A stretch of 64,000 nt of DNA from Agrocybe praecox (taxonomy: Eukaryota > Basidiomycota > Agaricomycetes > Agaricales > Agrocybaceae), in assembly GCA_964017145.1 (NCBI GenBank), contig OZ024840.1, positions 1,426,001 to 1,490,000 of the forward strand. The letters are read 5' to 3'. The translations under genes were made by a program, and so were the position numbers. Of the stretch, positions 32,980-41,487 are shown one piece after another. Each line of letters starts with the position of its first letter. The first letter of the stretch is position 1. Below the pieces are notes generated by a model that was not told the origin of the DNA, ran no database searches, and worked only from the letters and a program-made list of their open reading frames with translations.

Positions 32980-35577
32980 CATTGGCGTTCACGTTTTGGG
33001 GCTGCCGGTTTGACACGGTATTTCGTCGTGCGGATAGGTTTGAGGAAATTGTAATCGATCTTCATCATCATCGACATCGCGTCGTTCATGATCAACAACA
33101 ACAACAACTGGAAATCTTGTTATTCTTGTGCTGCTTTCTGTCCGTCTTTTCTGTTTTTCCCGCTGCGGTGCGGAGAGAGGGAGGACGAGGATGACCGTCA
33201 AACTCTTTCTACTGACATGTACATAGAAATAGGAACAATGGATTATACTTATAGGCTTGGGTCATATATATATACTAGGTACTCGTAAATGGATTGATTT
33301 AAAAGCTGCGATCTGTCATTGCATGGATCGCGTGTTTGTTTTATTTCTACCCCAGCGGGCGTACGTTCCTATCGCAATCGATCACGACATGTGTTAGGAG
33401 ACTTCTTGAACCTTTCCGAAGAGTAGGGAAATACGTATGATATGATGCATCTTTTTGATATGTGTATATGGATGCAATTGCGCATTTTACGAAGCTTCTC
33501 TATGACATTACATGCTATGCACTCGTCGATAGCACCGGACGAGAGACTGTATGAATCACCTTATCACAGAACTACACCGACTCCGAGTCTGTTTCCATAA
33601 CTTGTCGATCGTACATAGGGGGTCTGGTCACCAAGGGTGCTGCTACCGGCGATACTGGTCAAGAAGCGTAGAAAAGAATGTGATATGATACATTCGTATG
33701 TAGGATCTGATTTGAATTACCGTCAGTACTTCGGGCTTCAGAAATGTGATATATGTAGGATCATGATTTGAATTGCCGTCAGTACATAGACTCGCCGGAT
33801 GATCGATCCTCCCTGGCAGGGCAGCAGTCTCTCCAACAGGTCATGATCATGCGAGGTCGATGTCTATCTATAATGAAATCTTGACATATCACACAGGAGG
33901 TGGTGGCCCGCCCCACTGCCACTACCGCCACCACTGTCTAAATAGTACATATCAATATTAAGGGGGTTGTGCTCTCGAACGCCTCAAATGATACATACAT
34001 ATATATCCATAGCAAAATACGTATTGGGCTTACCCGAAGCCCCGAATGTTCCCCCGCCGCTGTTTTCGCTGTTCTTCCTAAAACCTTTTAACAACCTAAC
34101 GCTACGTGAACGCTTAATGGATCGTGATGGCGTACGTAACTCGTACATCCATTTTTTTCATTACCGTAGCTAGCTAGCTAGCGGCTTTGATTCATCATAC
34201 GTCAGCAGTGGCAAAAAGAGTCGACGACCCCTTTTATACTCGACGTTTGTCCAGGTAAGTAAAAGAGTCATGCTCTGCTCTGCGGCTCTGCTCGGCACTC
34301 CCAGGCTAGAGTAGCTTCCTACAGCACCCAAATACAAGGGTCCCTTTGATTTCATGATGGCACTTACCCAACACTTACCACATCCACTTACCTACTTACC
34401 CACTTACTAACTTAGCCTGATCATGATCACAAATCACCCTGATCGCACCGCGCTCCCGTTACCGTTACCACACGACCGACAAGGAAGTTCAAGTACCACA
34501 CTACTAGTATGCACCGTTGTTGTCGTGGAAGAAGGCCATGTAGAAATAAAAATAAAACCTTTAATTTAGTGCCATCAAAAAAAGAAACAGCTCGGCGGTC
34601 CAGCCGTAAGTATATGTACAACGTAACAAAGGCAAGGCATTTTGTAAGTAAGGCCACTCTTGGACAACGTATGTATATGTATGTAAATAGTGCACTGTGT
34701 ACATACAGAGCTCACCGCTCGTCTCCGTCCGTCCAAACTCGACTCTTAGCGCGGAGTGGGCCAGAAAGGGAATTTGCTCAAACAAATAAATCGCGATTGC
34801 AATGGAGAAAAATGATAAACATATCGCTTGATTGCTTGATCACTTAAGATAGACTATGACCCCTCATGCTGATCAGTACTCAGTGCTGTGATCAGGTTAC
34901 TCCTTATTTGTCTTTGATCCACAAGAATTCGAATTCGAATTCATTCATTCAACATCATTCAGGTAACACGCCGGCCCTAAGACTTAACCGGAGGGGAAGT
35001 CACTCGGTCGGTCATAATTGTCATTTGTCATAAACTTGTCGGGCCCAGCTGTCATACGCCCAATGGATATGAATACATACATACATACATATGAATGGAT
35101 GGATGGATGGCTCGATAGAAAGAAAGCGTCTAGCCGTAAGTATGTAAGATATCTAACGGGATTTTTTTTTTCGGACAGATCTCTGATGCTGTATATATGA
35201 GTACATAATACATAAGAACGTCGGCAACCAGAAACCCTGTCGTCGTACATATGTTAAGTACATATGTATAGATACGTACGTACGTACATACGTACCAAGG
35301 TATAAAGTAAGCTATCAAATCACATCAGAGTGTGAAAATAACATATGCCTATGTACATATTCACTGCTCCCGATAATTGATTGAGAAGGGCTTACAAGTT
35401 AACTAAATAGTTACTAGTTACAGGCAACGTGGTTCATGCTTGCAGGAACGACTGCTAATGCTATCTTATGTTAGCTCTTATGTAAAAACCTCTAGGCTCT
35501 CGTCCTGACTCCTGTAAGTAAGTAATATATACATGCCTAGAATCGACTCCATATATTACTTCGCTTCCTCGGAATAA
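32980..35577. other. Gene-free, simple-repeat-rich stretch left of the transposon
   Basis: 2.6 kb without a supported gene. It contains a degenerate direct repeat (33697-33785), TAGC x4 (34167-34182), CACTTACC-like runs (34360-34410), GAATTC runs (34925-34942), ATAC/GGAT runs (35073-35111) and TACG runs (35273-35296). Accumulated simple repeats next to a transposon suggest a relaxed intergenic zone. Confidence 0.5.
33697..33785. repeat. 33/34-bp direct repeat
   Basis: Copies at 33697-33729 and 33752-33785 read TATGTAGGATC(A)TGATTTG and AATT(A/G)CCGTCAGTAC. They differ by one indel and one substitution. They are 55 bp apart start to start. Confidence 0.7.
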
Positions 35578-35583
35578 CCTAAC
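35578..35583. repeat. Left target-site duplication CCTAAC
   Basis: CCTAAC lies directly before the left TIR. The same six bases directly follow the right TIR at 41482-41487. Confidence 0.85.
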
Positions 35584-35651
35584 TACGGTCGGCCATCACT
35601 GCCAGCTTCGTTTGCACTTTGCACTGTGCACTTGGTGATATTGAAAATGAT
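35584..35651 (+). repeat. Left terminal inverted repeat, outer block
   Basis: 68 bp from TACGGTCGGCC to AAAATGAT, including TTTGCAC repeats. It matches the reverse complement of 41414-41481 at 66/68. Weaker similarity continues to about 35680. Confidence 0.88.
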
Positions 35652-35876
35652 AGCAATGATCGGCATGTATCCAAACCGGGGAACCGTCACTGATGACGAA
35701 GACCCCCATATGACTGGGTTTCGCAAGTTCCCGCGCGCCGCTGGTTTGAGCACGGTGGATGGGGCTATTGGCGGGGCTCTTTATCAGTGCTCGGGCATTG
35801 TTTTGAGACATTTTGTGGACAGGGCTAGGTTTTGGACAAGCCGCCAGACAGATAAGATGCTTAATCTTTCAAATTT

Positions 35877-35947
35877 CCTTTTCCGTAAGTATTTTTCTTT
35901 TGAACCTACGCACGTGAGGTTCAAAAGAAAAATACTTACGGAAAAGG
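35877..35947. repeat. Perfect 31-bp hairpin with a 9-nt loop
   Basis: The arm at 35877-35907 (CCTTTTCCGTAAGTATTTTT...) is the exact reverse complement of 35917-35947. The loop is ACGCACGTG. It lies in the left subterminal region between the two inverted blocks and has no counterpart at the right end. Confidence 0.92.
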
Positions 35948-35994
35948 CAGAATGTTCTCGCGGGCCTACGGTGGGCCGTTTGCGGTTTCAATGC

Positions 35995-36092
35995 AGTTTC
36001 AATGTCCGACGGGTAATGCCGAACTTCCCTCTCTCGCGCTAATTGTACACGTATCTAACGGAGTATGAACCAGTATTATACCAAACGTAGTC
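35995..36092 (+). repeat. Inner inverted repeat, left copy
   Basis: Pairs with 41074-41168. Shared blocks are TAATGCCGAAC, GCTAATT, TATCT and the perfect 21-mer at 36062-36082. Between blocks the two copies diverge. Confidence 0.78.
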
Positions 36093-36296
36093 AGAGTAAT
36101 TTGAATGCTTATTAGAGTGCATTCATTAAATAAAAAGTGAGGCCAGGCTTTCTGGTCATCTTAAAAACTCGAAATTTCAAACGGACCTGCACTCGAGTGC
36201 CGTGAGAACATATCGAGACGATTCGCTTATCAAATTTTATCGATGAAGGTTATCGTCCGACATCATCCAGTATCCTTCCCTTCCAGCCAACCTGCT

Positions 36297-37810
36297 ATGC
36301 CAAATCCAAAGGGCATAAATCAATACCAGGACTGCCGTAAGTATTTCTTTTTTAATAATAAGATCTTTTCGACTTATCTGTGGGTGCTCAGCCAGCCCTG
36401 ATGACGAGGATTTCGCCCAAATTCTAAGGGATTATCACAGGAGGGGAATTACGTCTCCAAAAATCATTCATGAACTCCTTTTAAAAGAACATAAAATTAG
36501 TATCAGGTGAGCCACCTTTTTCCTCACGCTAATATTTGTATTTTAATGCACTTCCGATTACTTCATCCAGCGAAAGAAGCTTATTTCGTCGAAGAAAGAG
36601 TTTGGGATTGATGGGCAGCAGCTCTACAACACAGAGTCTGCCAGAAACTACCAAAAGACAGTATGTTCTGGATGAACTTGCCAATGACCCACTCGGAAAT
36701 CATGGCCCAAACACCGTGCGCGAAAATGTTCTTCACCGAACTGGACTTCTCCTTACCAGGTATGGCCGATAATTCTATAAATATCCTTCCTACATATATG
36801 TGTTATTTGACAGGCAATATATACGCGACGAAATGCGTTTGCACAACCCAGAAGGTTTCGAACATCGTGCACCAACCGCTAAGAAGATCCATCGAATCCC
36901 GTTGACTGCAGATGGGCCTCACGATGAATGGTCAGCAGACGGACACGATAAGCTGGTTTCAATTGGGTTTCCAATTTGGGGAGTTAGAGATAAGTGGTCG
37001 TCGAAGTGGCTCGGGCTCTGGGTTATCCCAAATAACCGCTTGAAGCTTGCAGTTGCATATCTTTATCTCAGCCTGGTTTACGAGCTTGGAGGAATGCCTG
37101 TCCAAAGCACCACTGACTGTGGCTCGGAGACAACAAGAATATTCTCTCTCGCAAACGCAATGAGGTATGTTTCTTCTATTTTTTATCTGAATTTTGTTGC
37201 TGACCATCTCAAAAGGGAAGTTTTGTTCGAGGAATTTTCGGAGGATGGAGACTGCCCTGTTCATAAATTTATGACCAGTATTAGGAACATTACCGTTGAG
37301 CGAGGATGGTTCCGATTGCGCATCAACTGGGGTGACAATATCAAAGTTGTCTTCGAGTCTGGTGCTCATCTCTACAATCCTGCCGATCCTATTCATTAGT
37401 ATGTTCATAAGGTTATTTATGTTATTTATGAGATTTTCTAACTACGCTACAGCGAGGTCTTTCAATGGCTGTGGCCAAGGTTTATTCAACAGGAACTTGA
37501 TGAATTTCGAGCTTTTCAAAACGATCATGTTATCCGTCGAGACAACAACAAAATCTTGCCGTCCGGTGTCTCGCCCAATATCGCATATACTCTACATGAA
37601 AAATACAATGGGAAGTATTGCCTGATTCCCATCGACAGAGAGATCGTGAAGGAGCTTATGGATGGAATTGGGGAAAGTGTTATTCAATTTGTGACACCAG
37701 AAGCTGCAGCGAGAGCGGAGATGGTATTTTCAAGCTTAAATATTAGAACACTTTCAAAGGGTAATATTTGGCATGTATTTACGTTAATGGTTGTGGAAAT
37801 GAGAAAATAA
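36297..37810 (+). CDS. Integrase-like DDE transposase
   Basis: Catalyses cutting and joining of the element's ends. Six exons join in phase: 36297-36336, 36392-36506, 36571-36759, 36814-37164, 37216-37398 and 37453-37810, giving 411 aa with no internal stop. The start MPNPKG precedes an N-terminal helix-turn-helix-like region: PDDEDFAQILRDYHRRGITS, then SERSLFRRRKSLGL, which resembles the specificity end of bacterial IS3-type proteins. The retroviral-integrase-fold core has D157 (EWSADGHDKL), D216 (STTDCGSET) and E260 (ITVERGW), with spacing D-43-E. The C-terminal part has FQWLWPRFIQQELDEF and KILPSGVSPNIAY. This family is common in Agaricomycete genomes and is usually called 'integrase core domain protein'. 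The gene is intact and lies within TIRs, so it is probably functional. It converges on the kinase gene. Confidence 0.9.
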
Positions 37811-37824
37811 AATACTGTAAAAAC

Positions 37825-40492
37825 TTAAAATCCAACGCGAAGAGGATGAACCCTATCAGCCATAGACCCATTTCCCGAAGAACTGCGTTCTAAGACATTT
37901 GCGTTACCGTCATTACTGGTGTCCTGCACATCAGCATTAACAGTAGTCAGTTTCTCTGGAGCTTGTGGCTTCTTTCCCATTCGCCTTTTTTCCTTTCTGT
38001 TTTCATCATATTCCTGCTTGTGTGCCTTGAATTCGGCCTCGGATTCGTCAGTCGAGAGCTCATATGACATCATATCGAGATCCTTCTTTGCAAGATCAGG
38101 AAGATTGAGCTTCTTGCAGTAGTTATTGCACTTATGCGTCTTCATATACTTCTCGATGACTGGCCTTCCACCGTCCCAGTAGCCACACGATGGTCCAGAC
38201 CTAAAAATATGGATATATCAGTAATTCAAGTACCTGCATCATTAAACCGTGTACGTACTTTGTATGGGCTTGCGGATCAAACATAATAAACTCCTGTGTT
38301 GTGAGTGTACCGGGCGTAAGAAGACCTTTTAATCATATGAGAAAAATACTTAAAAGTTAAAAAAGAAGTGAGTAGCGTACCTTGAACATCAGCAAATAAA
38401 ACATTGCCATAGCTATTGCAAAATGCCGAGTGTACAAATGATTCTACAATAGCGCCAATACCTAGGGCATAGTTGTCGAACTCTTGGTTTCCGCTAAACT
38501 TTAATTCTTGATATTGTTGGTCACCGATGGGCAAAAGTGGAGCGGCAAGAAAATGATTAAAGTAAAGACTGGCATTTTTATCAGCGGCCGATCCTACAGT
38601 TGCGAGCGGAGTAACCAATTCGCCAACAAAGGTACCCATGACATTCCAAGCAAGCTCTGTTAAAGACAATAAATAAAGACTTTATGTGCAAAATTCAGGA
38701 CTCACTGGGAAGCTTATCAACAATTCGTTTTTCCGATGCCTTAAGATAATAGAGACGCAGGAAATATTGGCCAAGGACGAGAAGACGAAGCTCAGCCAGA
38801 AGATCTTCTCGGTTTTCTGCAGCAGTTGAACGCATTGGGCAGCTCTGGAAAATTGCATACTCTTTTCCCTGATATGTTCCCTACATAATGAGAGCGCTAA
38901 ATCAGCATTGTGGGCGTTTATTTGAACGAACCCCAAGACTTACTTTAAAAGCATATTTTGTATAGCCTTTGGCAATATATCCTCCCTTCGGCTTTTCTTC
39001 CTTCTTGTACTTCTGCCATCCTTTGACGATCTCGATCTTCTCAGAAATGGAAGATATCTTCTTTGTTACTGCACCAGACTCGTCAATAGAATAATCTATT
39101 TTATAGAACATAAAATCCTCATAATCGTGGCCGCCGCTGACTTCATCGCTGCTGACTTCACGAAATGCTCGAAATGCACTTTTAGACCGAGGGCCACTAT
39201 TGAAAGTCAGTCGTGGTAAATCTAAGCGGTCGGGAATAGATGAGAAATTTGTAGGGTACGCATAATTAGAAGACATACCTTTTCTTGCGCTGTTTATAAC
39301 AGTGCGACGTTTTTTCGGAGGAGGTGAGGCTGTGCCTGATGCAGGTTTAGCAGATTTGCGACTGCTTGGGATAGCTTCGAAATCGTAGTCCCCATCGTCA
39401 TCATCGTCTAAATAGCTCAAGTGATTCTCTTCGGTGGCCTCCGCCTATATTACAGTCAGCATAGTATGTAACAATGTTATAAAAAAGCACGAAAAATACC
39501 TTTTCATAAGTAGTGATCCGTAAAGGAATCTTACTTTCCTTGATCGCTTTTTCATTTATAAGACGATGGATCTTGAGTTGGTTGAACAAATTTTCGATAG
39601 ACCCCAAAATGTAGGTACTGTCGATGTCAGTGACAGTACCTCCTTGAGTAATTCCAATGTTAATGGAGTCGCTTTTGAAAAGGTGAGCAATGAGAGAATG
39701 AAGTTTGAAGAAATAAGTAAACTTACATATTGAACTCAAGGACTGCCTTTGGCTCCGGGATTTGGGCATATTTATTCTCGATTTTTTTGAGAAGATCCAT
39801 GAAAAAGGAATACGCGCTGAGATTAAACGCAGCATCTTCAGCGAACATGTTCATTTGAACCTGAAGAATAATAACACATGTTGTGAGGAATGACTTGAAA
39901 AATAAGGCATTACTCACCTTCTTTGAATTGCCATTACTCTGACGACCACCTTTCCTTGGCCAAAAAAATACCTGGATTTCCATACGAAGAGTCTCGATTT
40001 TATTTGAATGTCGACGAAGGGTATCAATCCTAGCCTCTCTTGGTGCAACTGATACTGTAGGCTTCTTCTGGAATAGACGACTGCCGCTCGCTGACTTCTC
40101 CCGAACCGCCGCAACCTCATTGATTCGCAATGCGATTGTCTTTACCGACTCCGCAGCAGCTGAAGTAGCTGAATACCCTGCTCGTTCCTTTAATTTCTGC
40201 CTTACATTCATTAGAAAGTCACAACTTACCAGACAATCTAGGCTTGCACGAGCCGCAGTATTCTTCGGCAAGAAATCGGTATACAACACCACATCCAAGG
40301 CATTGTGGGTCCTTCTATTTAAACAATAAAGTCAATAAACAAGCTCCTCTAATATATACTTGTACAAGTATAACTCACATCAATGTTTGGCCACTCGATT
40401 GGATCAGCATCCAACTTCTTCGTGCATCGAGAGCAATTAGTTCCAGGGGACAGATGTATAAAGTCTTGTGCACAGCTAGAGCAAAGAGGCAT
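37825..40492 (-). CDS. Zinc-ribbon alpha-kinase (MHCK/EF2K family) carried by the transposon
   Basis: Predicted atypical Ser/Thr kinase. Ten exons join in phase: 40379-40492, 40230-40314, 40177-39918, 39860-39727, 39671-39500, 39444-38944, 38880-38706, 38656-38381, 38325-38259 and 38200-37825 (719 aa). A 57-nt in-frame stretch near 39240-39280 (GTATGT...CTTAG) may be a further intron. The N-terminus has four CxxC pairs (C4/C7, C20/C23, C43/C46, C58/C61), likely two zinc ribbons. The middle is basic and acidic low-complexity sequence. The kinase domain begins about residue 405: KGYTKYAFK, GTYQGKEYAIF, then NREDLLAELRLLVLGQYFL and FVHSAFCNSYGNVLFADVQG (D570). It continues FDPQAHT (589-594), a Gly-containing SGPSCGYWDGG, and the zinc-binding THKCNNYC (H617, C619, C623). 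These are the hallmarks of alpha-kinases. An acidic/basic tail follows. The ATP-site lysine was not assigned with confidence. Confidence 0.88.
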
Positions 40493-41073
40493 ATTGAATA
40501 GAGTTCGATGGTGCGATCACAAGATATGTAGCAGAGTAACTGAAGATAACACGTTGAGTTTGTAAAAGAACTTGAAAGGTAGCCACTTAAATATTCTCCG
40601 GCTAAGAACACTATGGAACACCGTCGAAAATACAGTGCAGTGATAAAAAAACATGTGTTTTTGAAAGCTCCTATTTCAGGGATGAAACCTATGGTATTTG
40701 ATTTTCTACCACTAAGATCATGCATGATGACGATAAATTAAACGAGGATTGTTCAGAAGTTCTTAGTAAGTAGGCTGTTTGCTTCGTGTAGCTGGTATTC
40801 ATAGCGGGAAATAATGTCTATAATTACAGAAGAGCTATCACAAAGCATGTAAAACATGTTCATGAGTATTACAGAGGATATAAGAACCATGTAAGTAGCC
40901 CAACGCGTCGACACGTTGAAGTCCAAATACATCACGTTCGCATCAAATATGCGTTCTCACGGTGCTCGGCATACATTCGATCGAAAAGGTTTCATGTTTT
41001 CAATTGCCAGAGGACCTGGCCTCGGTTTTTATGTGGTTTTTACGTTTAAATATACATATAGAGTATAATTGTC

Positions 41074-41168
41074 GACTACGGTATAATACTGGTTCATACT
41101 TTGTGAGATATGAGTAGAATTAGCAAACAAGCGGCGGGTTCGGCATTATTCGCCGAACTTTGAAATTA
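41074..41168 (-). repeat. Inner inverted repeat, right copy
   Basis: Reverse complement of the 35995-36092 block, with the perfect 21-mer at 41080-41100 (GGTATAATACTGGTTCATAC+T). It includes GTTCGGCATTATTCGCCGAAC, itself a small palindrome. Confidence 0.78.
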
Positions 41169-41413
41169 CATGAAACGAACATATTTGAAATTTCAAAAAG
41201 CTGATACCCGTCGGGGGTCCAAGATTTTTGGCAGGGATACTCTGCATATATATGTAGTACATATTATAAAGGCTTCTTTTAAATTTGGTGGGTTCCTCGA
41301 ACGGGGCAGTACAATTGAGCTCAACGAACACCTTATCCGGCACGAGTTTCCATAAATAGCACGACGCCGCGAGCAGTCACATGGTTGTGGATACAAATAC
41401 CGATCAGTCCTTC

Positions 41414-41481
41414 ATCATTTTCAATATCACCAAATGCAAAGTGCAAAGTGCAAACGAAGCTGGCAGTGATGGCCGACCGTA
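41414..41481 (-). repeat. Right terminal inverted repeat, outer block
   Basis: Matches the left end at 66/68 and terminates GGCCGACCGTA at 41481. Confidence 0.88.
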
Positions 41482-41487
41482 CCTAAC
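41482..41487. repeat. Right target-site duplication CCTAAC
   Basis: Identical to 35578-35583 and directly abuts the TIR. It marks the insertion as a single event that has not been scrambled. Confidence 0.85.

Follow-up and report, generated by a model that had tools for sequence, protein, structure and literature searches.

A DNA transposon of Agrocybe praecox with ends that fit IS3EU carries an alpha-kinase-family gene beside its transposase gene

The window analysed here is a stretch of 64,000 nucleotides of the Agrocybe praecox genome (assembly GCA_964017145.1, contig OZ024840.1, positions 1,426,001 to 1,490,000 of the forward strand). It harbours a complete DNA transposon in which a transposase gene and a gene of the alpha-kinase family lie between outer terminal inverted repeats (TIRs), flanked by a target site duplication (TSD). 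Its features, in window positions, are the following.

35578..35583, no strand: left TSD, CCTAAC, read directly from the flank
35584..41481: complete element, two genes between the outer TIRs and the TSD
35584..35651, plus strand: left TIR, 68 bp, starting TACGGTCGGCC; the TIR has only two matches in the assembly
35877..35947, no strand: subterminal perfect inverted repeat, 31 bp with a 9-nt loop
35991..36082, plus strand: left arm of an inner (subterminal) inverted repeat, 76% over 92 bp; this stretch recurs at other loci
36297..37810, plus strand: transposase gene, 6 exons, 411 aa, hand-built splice model
37825..40492, minus strand: alpha-kinase-family gene, 10 exons, 719 aa, hand-built splice model
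41080..41171, minus strand: right arm of the inner inverted repeat
41414..41481, minus strand: right TIR, identical to the left TIR at 66/68 positions
41482..41487, no strand: right TSD, CCTAAC, read directly from the flank

An earlier note on this DNA had described a complete DDE (Asp-Asp-Glu) element of the cut-and-paste type with unambiguous boundaries, and our analysis agrees with it. The 68-bp TIRs match at 66 of 68 positions, CCTAAC stands on both sides and the boundaries are exact to the base; the termini, the TSD and both spliced frames were all found. When the splice models were rebuilt by hand, the same lengths were obtained for the transposase and the kinase (411 and 719 aa). The element starts and ends with TACGG..CCGTA. 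Its genes are convergent and 14 bp separate their stop codons, therefore there is no room for a third gene between transposase and kinase. The G+C content of the element is 0.42, compared to 0.47 and 0.46 for the two adjoining stretches of 10 kb.

The transposase matches the Pfam family rva_4 (PF24764, E-value 1.7e-7, 31.6 bits against a cut-off of 26). Its DDE core residues are D157, D216 and E260, and the N-terminal part is helical. For a relative with 61% identity (P0005) the predicted structure has an integrase-type core. The window proteins also gave weak Pfam matches to RB_B, DNA_ligase_aden and DZR_2, which were rejected as all of them were below their own cut-offs. IS3EU transposons have been described with 6-bp TSDs, TIRs of over 30 bp and the ends TAYGG..CCRTA (PMC12730594), and in complete IS3EU families the termini are TA..TA without exception and the TSD is usually of 6 bp (PMC10045372). 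All of these traits are found in the window element, with its TACGG..CCGTA ends, the 6-bp CCTAAC and the 68-bp TIR. From the ends and the DDE core it is predicted to be an IS3EU-type DNA transposon with two genes, and the ends fit this class.

The 719-aa protein harbours paired CxxC motifs in its N-terminal part and an alpha-kinase domain with DVQG and DPQAHT in its C-terminal part. The domain matches Alpha_kinase (PF02816) with an E-value of 2.1e-13 (51.2 bits, cut-off 21.3), and the introns of the gene are of the GT..AG type and 49-64 nt long. The catalytic DxQ and DPQ motifs and the His/Cys/Cys of the zinc site are present (D570, Q572, D589, H556 and HKCNNYC). Asp766 of MHCK-A is an invariant catalytic residue (PMC4876393), and D589 of the window kinase should be its counterpart. 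A profile of five kinases matched the chains of MHCK-A, eEF2K and TRPM7 in the C-terminal lobe. The motifs DxQG, DPQ.H and H.C...C are common to these alpha-kinases and the transposon kinases, whereas the paired N-terminal CxxC motifs distinguish the transposon kinase from all three. Seven kinases were compared: those of the window, of two further elements of this genome (C10 and C4, see below) and of Gymnopilus, Hygrophoropsis, Gautieria and Tricholomella. DxQG and DPQAH are kept in 7/7, and the window kinase is 24-38% identical to its four relatives.

Searches with the transposase and the kinase led to a second family of elements in the same genome, with the ends TACCGTT..AACGGTA. A pattern search with this TIR gave 17 matches (8 pairs and 1 orphan), compared to 0 for a reversed control. 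The elements were defined by the TIR alone and their TSDs were examined afterwards, the flanks being compared by eye. A perfect 6-bp TSD was found in 8/8 pairs (CTCAAG, TGGGTA, CTGCTG, CAAGGG, CACCTC, AGGCCG, CTGGTG and TACGTA). The ends of this family read TACCG..CGGTA and thus have TA..TA but not TAYGG. Three of the eight elements contain transposase and kinase sequence. The family is listed below as contig and position.

C10:3611122-3617974, 6853 bp: sequence of both genes, in tandem
C4:662176-666415, 4240 bp: sequence of both genes, in tandem
C6:2120846-2124244, 3399 bp: sequence of both genes, in tandem
C4:1081731-1083998: no gene match, perfect 6-bp TSD
C4:1084340-1086207: no gene match, perfect 6-bp TSD
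C1:4524304-4526173: no gene match, perfect 6-bp TSD
C2:2960985-2962804: no gene match, perfect 6-bp TSD
C4:3459277-3461144: no gene match, perfect 6-bp TSD

The first three are referred to here as C10, C4 and C6. The kinase of C10 shares the N-terminal paired CxxC motifs with the window kinase. C4 and C6 are near-identical (99.5-99.8% where aligned) and carry different internal deletions. The recurrence that the earlier note had proposed to check is found here: C10, C4 and C6 have sequence of both genes enclosed by TIRs and flanked by 6-bp TSDs. Judged from these sequences, the pairing of kinase and transposase is not a one-off capture.

The three best alpha-kinase profile matches (on C195, C3 and C13) were checked for TIRs, and the selection did not extend to the loci C4:3084900, C12, C3:4165965, C10:3485119, C4:228336 and C8. 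At the first two of them an element was found:

C195:18262-21023, TSD GCCGAC: fragmentary element with pieces of the transposase and of the kinase domain, in divergent orientation
C3:3122902-3127484, TSD ACGCAC: element of 4.6 kb, TIR 24/24 starting TATGG, with a classical-looking alpha-kinase fragment

At the alpha-kinase locus on C13 no TIR or TSD was found. A loose TIR scan (12/20 plus a perfect TSD) matched 5/20 shuffles of C195 and 7/20 of C3. The C3 TIR (24/24) is far above this background, and the C195 TIR (15/20), which was first spotted by eye, is supported also by a gapped continuation of the TIR.

We also asked how often kinase and transposase genes are neighbours in this genome. 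The 13 alpha-kinase loci comprise 12 from a profile search of the genome and the window locus, and locus counts are lower bounds. Five of the 13 have a window-type transposase at a distance of no more than 5 kb, against a chance expectation of 0.024 pairs, and 5/11 window-type transposase loci have a kinase within the same distance. Random draws placed at least two kinase loci near a transposase in 58 of 200,000 cases. Among the other rva_4 transposases, 0/23 loci are near a kinase (6 of the 23 are below the family cut-off).

The pairing appears to extend to other mushrooms. Two protein-database searches gave five kinase relatives, and equal contig size was used as a stand-in for the same contig in these species. 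In Gymnopilus junonius the kinase P0001 and the transposase P0021 each lie on a contig of 290,224 bases, and in Hygrophoropsis aurantiaca the kinase P0003 and the transposase P0011 each on one of 7,881 bases. This strongly suggests that the pair recurs in Gymnopilus and Hygrophoropsis. As to the co-evolution of the two proteins that the earlier note had asked about, their distances correlate (r 0.94, reached by 3/120 permutations), with only 5 pairs, two clades that drive r and approximate models in two of the five. When an alignment of five kinase rows was used as the query of a protein search, the single match was a protein of Tricholomella with an alpha-kinase domain and the annotation laccase. 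This protein (P0125, Tricholomella constricta) thus carries a transposon-type alpha-kinase domain under a laccase annotation, and is perhaps an insertion into a laccase gene or a false fusion with one.

The earlier note knew of no alpha-kinase described as a component of a cut-and-paste transposon. This was overtaken by Kojima 2025 (PMC12730594), where an alpha-kinase gene oriented oppositely to the transposase is reported for TET-bearing IS3EU families of rusts and Tuber. In the literature searched, which did not include subscription papers and Repbase reports, this was the only source that joins an alpha-kinase to a DNA transposon; there it is mentioned in passing and given no function. The published elements share with the window element the TAYGG..CCRTA ends, a TIR of more than 30 bp, the 6-bp TSD and oppositely oriented genes (PMC12730594). 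They differ in having a TET/JBP gene between the two genes, which the window element lacks, and the genes of C10, C4 and C6 have the same orientation, in contrast to both. A genome search for TET/JBP (PF12851) gave 11 matches, 1 of them over the cut-off, and none at the window element or the related elements. The window element is therefore a TET-free form of the published IS3EU layout, in a mushroom. New to the literature searched are this TET-free mushroom form, the family with tandem genes and a possibly altered ATP site, read by eye.

Elements of the KDZ (Kyakuja-Dileera-Zisupton) group make 8-bp TSDs, and the window element, with 6 bp, does not agree with them. KDZ elements with TET/JBP are likewise fungal DNA transposons with an accessory enzyme (PMC12730594), but that enzyme is a dioxygenase and the transposase is another one, whereas the accessory protein of the window element is kinase-like.

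All the data taken together, the kinase is most likely an old accessory gene of this transposon. The kinase-like protein is probably the regular second protein of an IS3EU-type lineage and would work for the element. We expect it to serve the element because it is paired with this type of transposase and not with other rva_4 types, because its motifs are kept at low identity and because it very probably accompanies the transposase in other species. As the fold and the TSDs suggest, the 411-aa DDE enzyme would recognise the TIRs, cut at the TA..TA ends and insert with a 6-bp stagger, as integrase-type transposases do. The kinase-like protein would probably bind through its N-terminal zinc-ribbon-like motifs. 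Its target would be the transposase or else a host factor of chromatin or of translation, which it would then modify or, as a pseudokinase, hold. In the TET-bearing published elements, a TET gene may have been acquired between the two genes that were there before.

Whether the protein still transfers phosphate bears on this model. The earlier note had called the alpha-kinase intact, which holds for its open reading frame, but the alignments did not establish that the ATP site is complete. By eye, the ATP-site strand after the P-loop reads YAIFQ, YALFQ, YVLTQ, FAVLQ or YAVFQ in the seven kinases, and in 7/7 an F, T or L stands where the lysine of KFVLKLY in MHCK-A would fall. This placement uses also the lysine of NIVAKQAF in the kinase of the same genome at C10:3485119. 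In the window kinase, the residues from 429 to beyond 455 include no lysine. These observations would fit a pseudokinase, a zinc-ribbon partner of the transposase that binds DNA or protein and has lost phosphotransfer; we regard this variant of the accessory role, which does not compete with it, as possible but doubtful. Automatic alignments place the strand otherwise: HMMER aligned the MHCK-A stretch at a different place, weakly, the kinase family profile aligned to the host kinase at C10:3485119 at the C-terminal lobe only (1.9 bits), and three MAFFT modes positioned the strand differently from the reading by eye. Moreover, 3/7 kinases (Hygrophoropsis, Gautieria and Tricholomella) have a lysine two residues past the Q, and DxQG and DPQAH in all seven would be unusual for a dead enzyme. 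The ATP site of the transposon kinase is thus possibly altered, and may be standard, rebuilt or lost. An AlphaFold model of P0001 (5 sequences) was too poor, with a mean predicted local distance difference test score of 37.8, and was not used.

Several observations weigh against a regular role of the kinase, and some of them would suit passive cargo, an alpha-kinase gene taken up from a host once or repeatedly and carried by the element without helping it. The five short TACCGTT elements (1.8-2.3 kb, four of them 93-99.9% alike) gave no match to transposase or kinase at an E-value of 1e-3; such copies are expected of non-autonomous elements, yet they show that the ends move without either gene. 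The gene order is inconstant, being convergent in the window, tandem in C10, C4 and C6 and divergent in C195, and the C3 element has a kinase fragment but no match to the window-type transposase inside. The transposase model of C10 has one stretch with a stop that alignment did not resolve. No partner was found within 5 kb of 8/13 kinase loci and 6/11 window-type transposase loci, and the five paired loci do not count as independent, since C4 and C6 represent the same element type. The idea that transposons explain alpha-kinase numbers is upheld in part only, by the five of 13 loci in this genome beside such a transposase, two of them one element type. In addition, 3/5 database kinase relatives (the second Gymnopilus protein, Gautieria and Tricholomella) had no transposase on a contig of equal length among the 120 of 165 transposase matches listed. 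Against passive cargo, the transposon kinases share the paired CxxC N-terminus and DxQG/DPQAH despite their low identity, their distances follow those of the transposases, and the pair has been published from rusts and Tuber (PMC12730594). We therefore consider mere cargo improbable and an accessory gene of the element the better explanation.

A placement of the element in GingerRoot, or in some other superfamily of the integrase type, instead of IS3EU is less probable still. GingerRoot elements have 6-bp TSDs too and their termini are mostly TA..TA (PMC10045372), but IS3EU and GingerRoot form one lineage with 99% bootstrap (PMC10045372), hence this would be a difference of naming, and the alpha-kinase genes were reported for fungal IS3EU (PMC12730594). 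Both groups share TA..TA termini, the 6-bp TSD and an integrase-like DDE core with the window element; the main text of PMC10045372 does not contain the word kinase, unlike the gene content found here.

As to mobility, the earlier note had proposed to look for a second copy or an empty site of the window family, and neither was found by TIR and left-flank searches. The assembly holds no second copy of the window TIR (searched with the 68-bp TIR and with its first 28 bp at up to 3 mismatches). The left flank (33000-35583) has a single place in the assembly with no empty allele readable, and the right flank was not searched alone. The single copy could also be read as a kinase domesticated by the host between the remains of an old insertion, but this is very unlikely, as TIRs of 66/68 and a TSD of 6/6 point to a young insertion and both reading frames are open. 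The probable mobility of this element type rests on the TSD and on the TACCGTT family, where two copies 99.5-99.8% identical at unrelated sites provide the basis, and not on a second copy of the window family.

Twelve other loci resemble the subterminal parts of the window element (L012 at C6:590069-590997, L013 on C3, L014-L021, L024 and L025), with main pieces 73-85% alike. In L012 and L013 the left and right parts are joined and both genes are gone except for approximately the first transposase exon, and L014 has a relative of the 31-bp inverted repeat (35877-35947). No TA..TA ends with a TSD were found at the twelve loci when 3.3-3.5 kb of each was scanned.

The window element belongs to a known but barely studied kind of transposon, and the family with tandem gene order is a variant new to the literature searched. 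If the accessory role is true, a kinase-like gene would let a cut-and-paste element act on its transposase or on the host by signalling, not by DNA modification. More speculatively, and with less confidence than in the accessory role itself, the zinc-ribbon alpha-kinase-like protein, whose ATP site may have been rebuilt, might be the indispensable second component of a fungal transposon lineage that predates the divergence of mushrooms, rusts and truffles. The protein might work together with the transposase or oppose silencing by the host, and the large alpha-kinase families of rusts and mushrooms might for the most part be copies of this transposon gene. The alpha-kinase family has been described as 'highly expanded in the rusts' (PMC4469406), and wheat rusts show a significant enrichment of the family PF02816 (ratio 2.34, Q 3.5E-02; PMC5295586). 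The pairing of kinase and transposase offers a concrete test of whether an IS3EU-type transposon underlies the alpha-kinase expansion in rusts.

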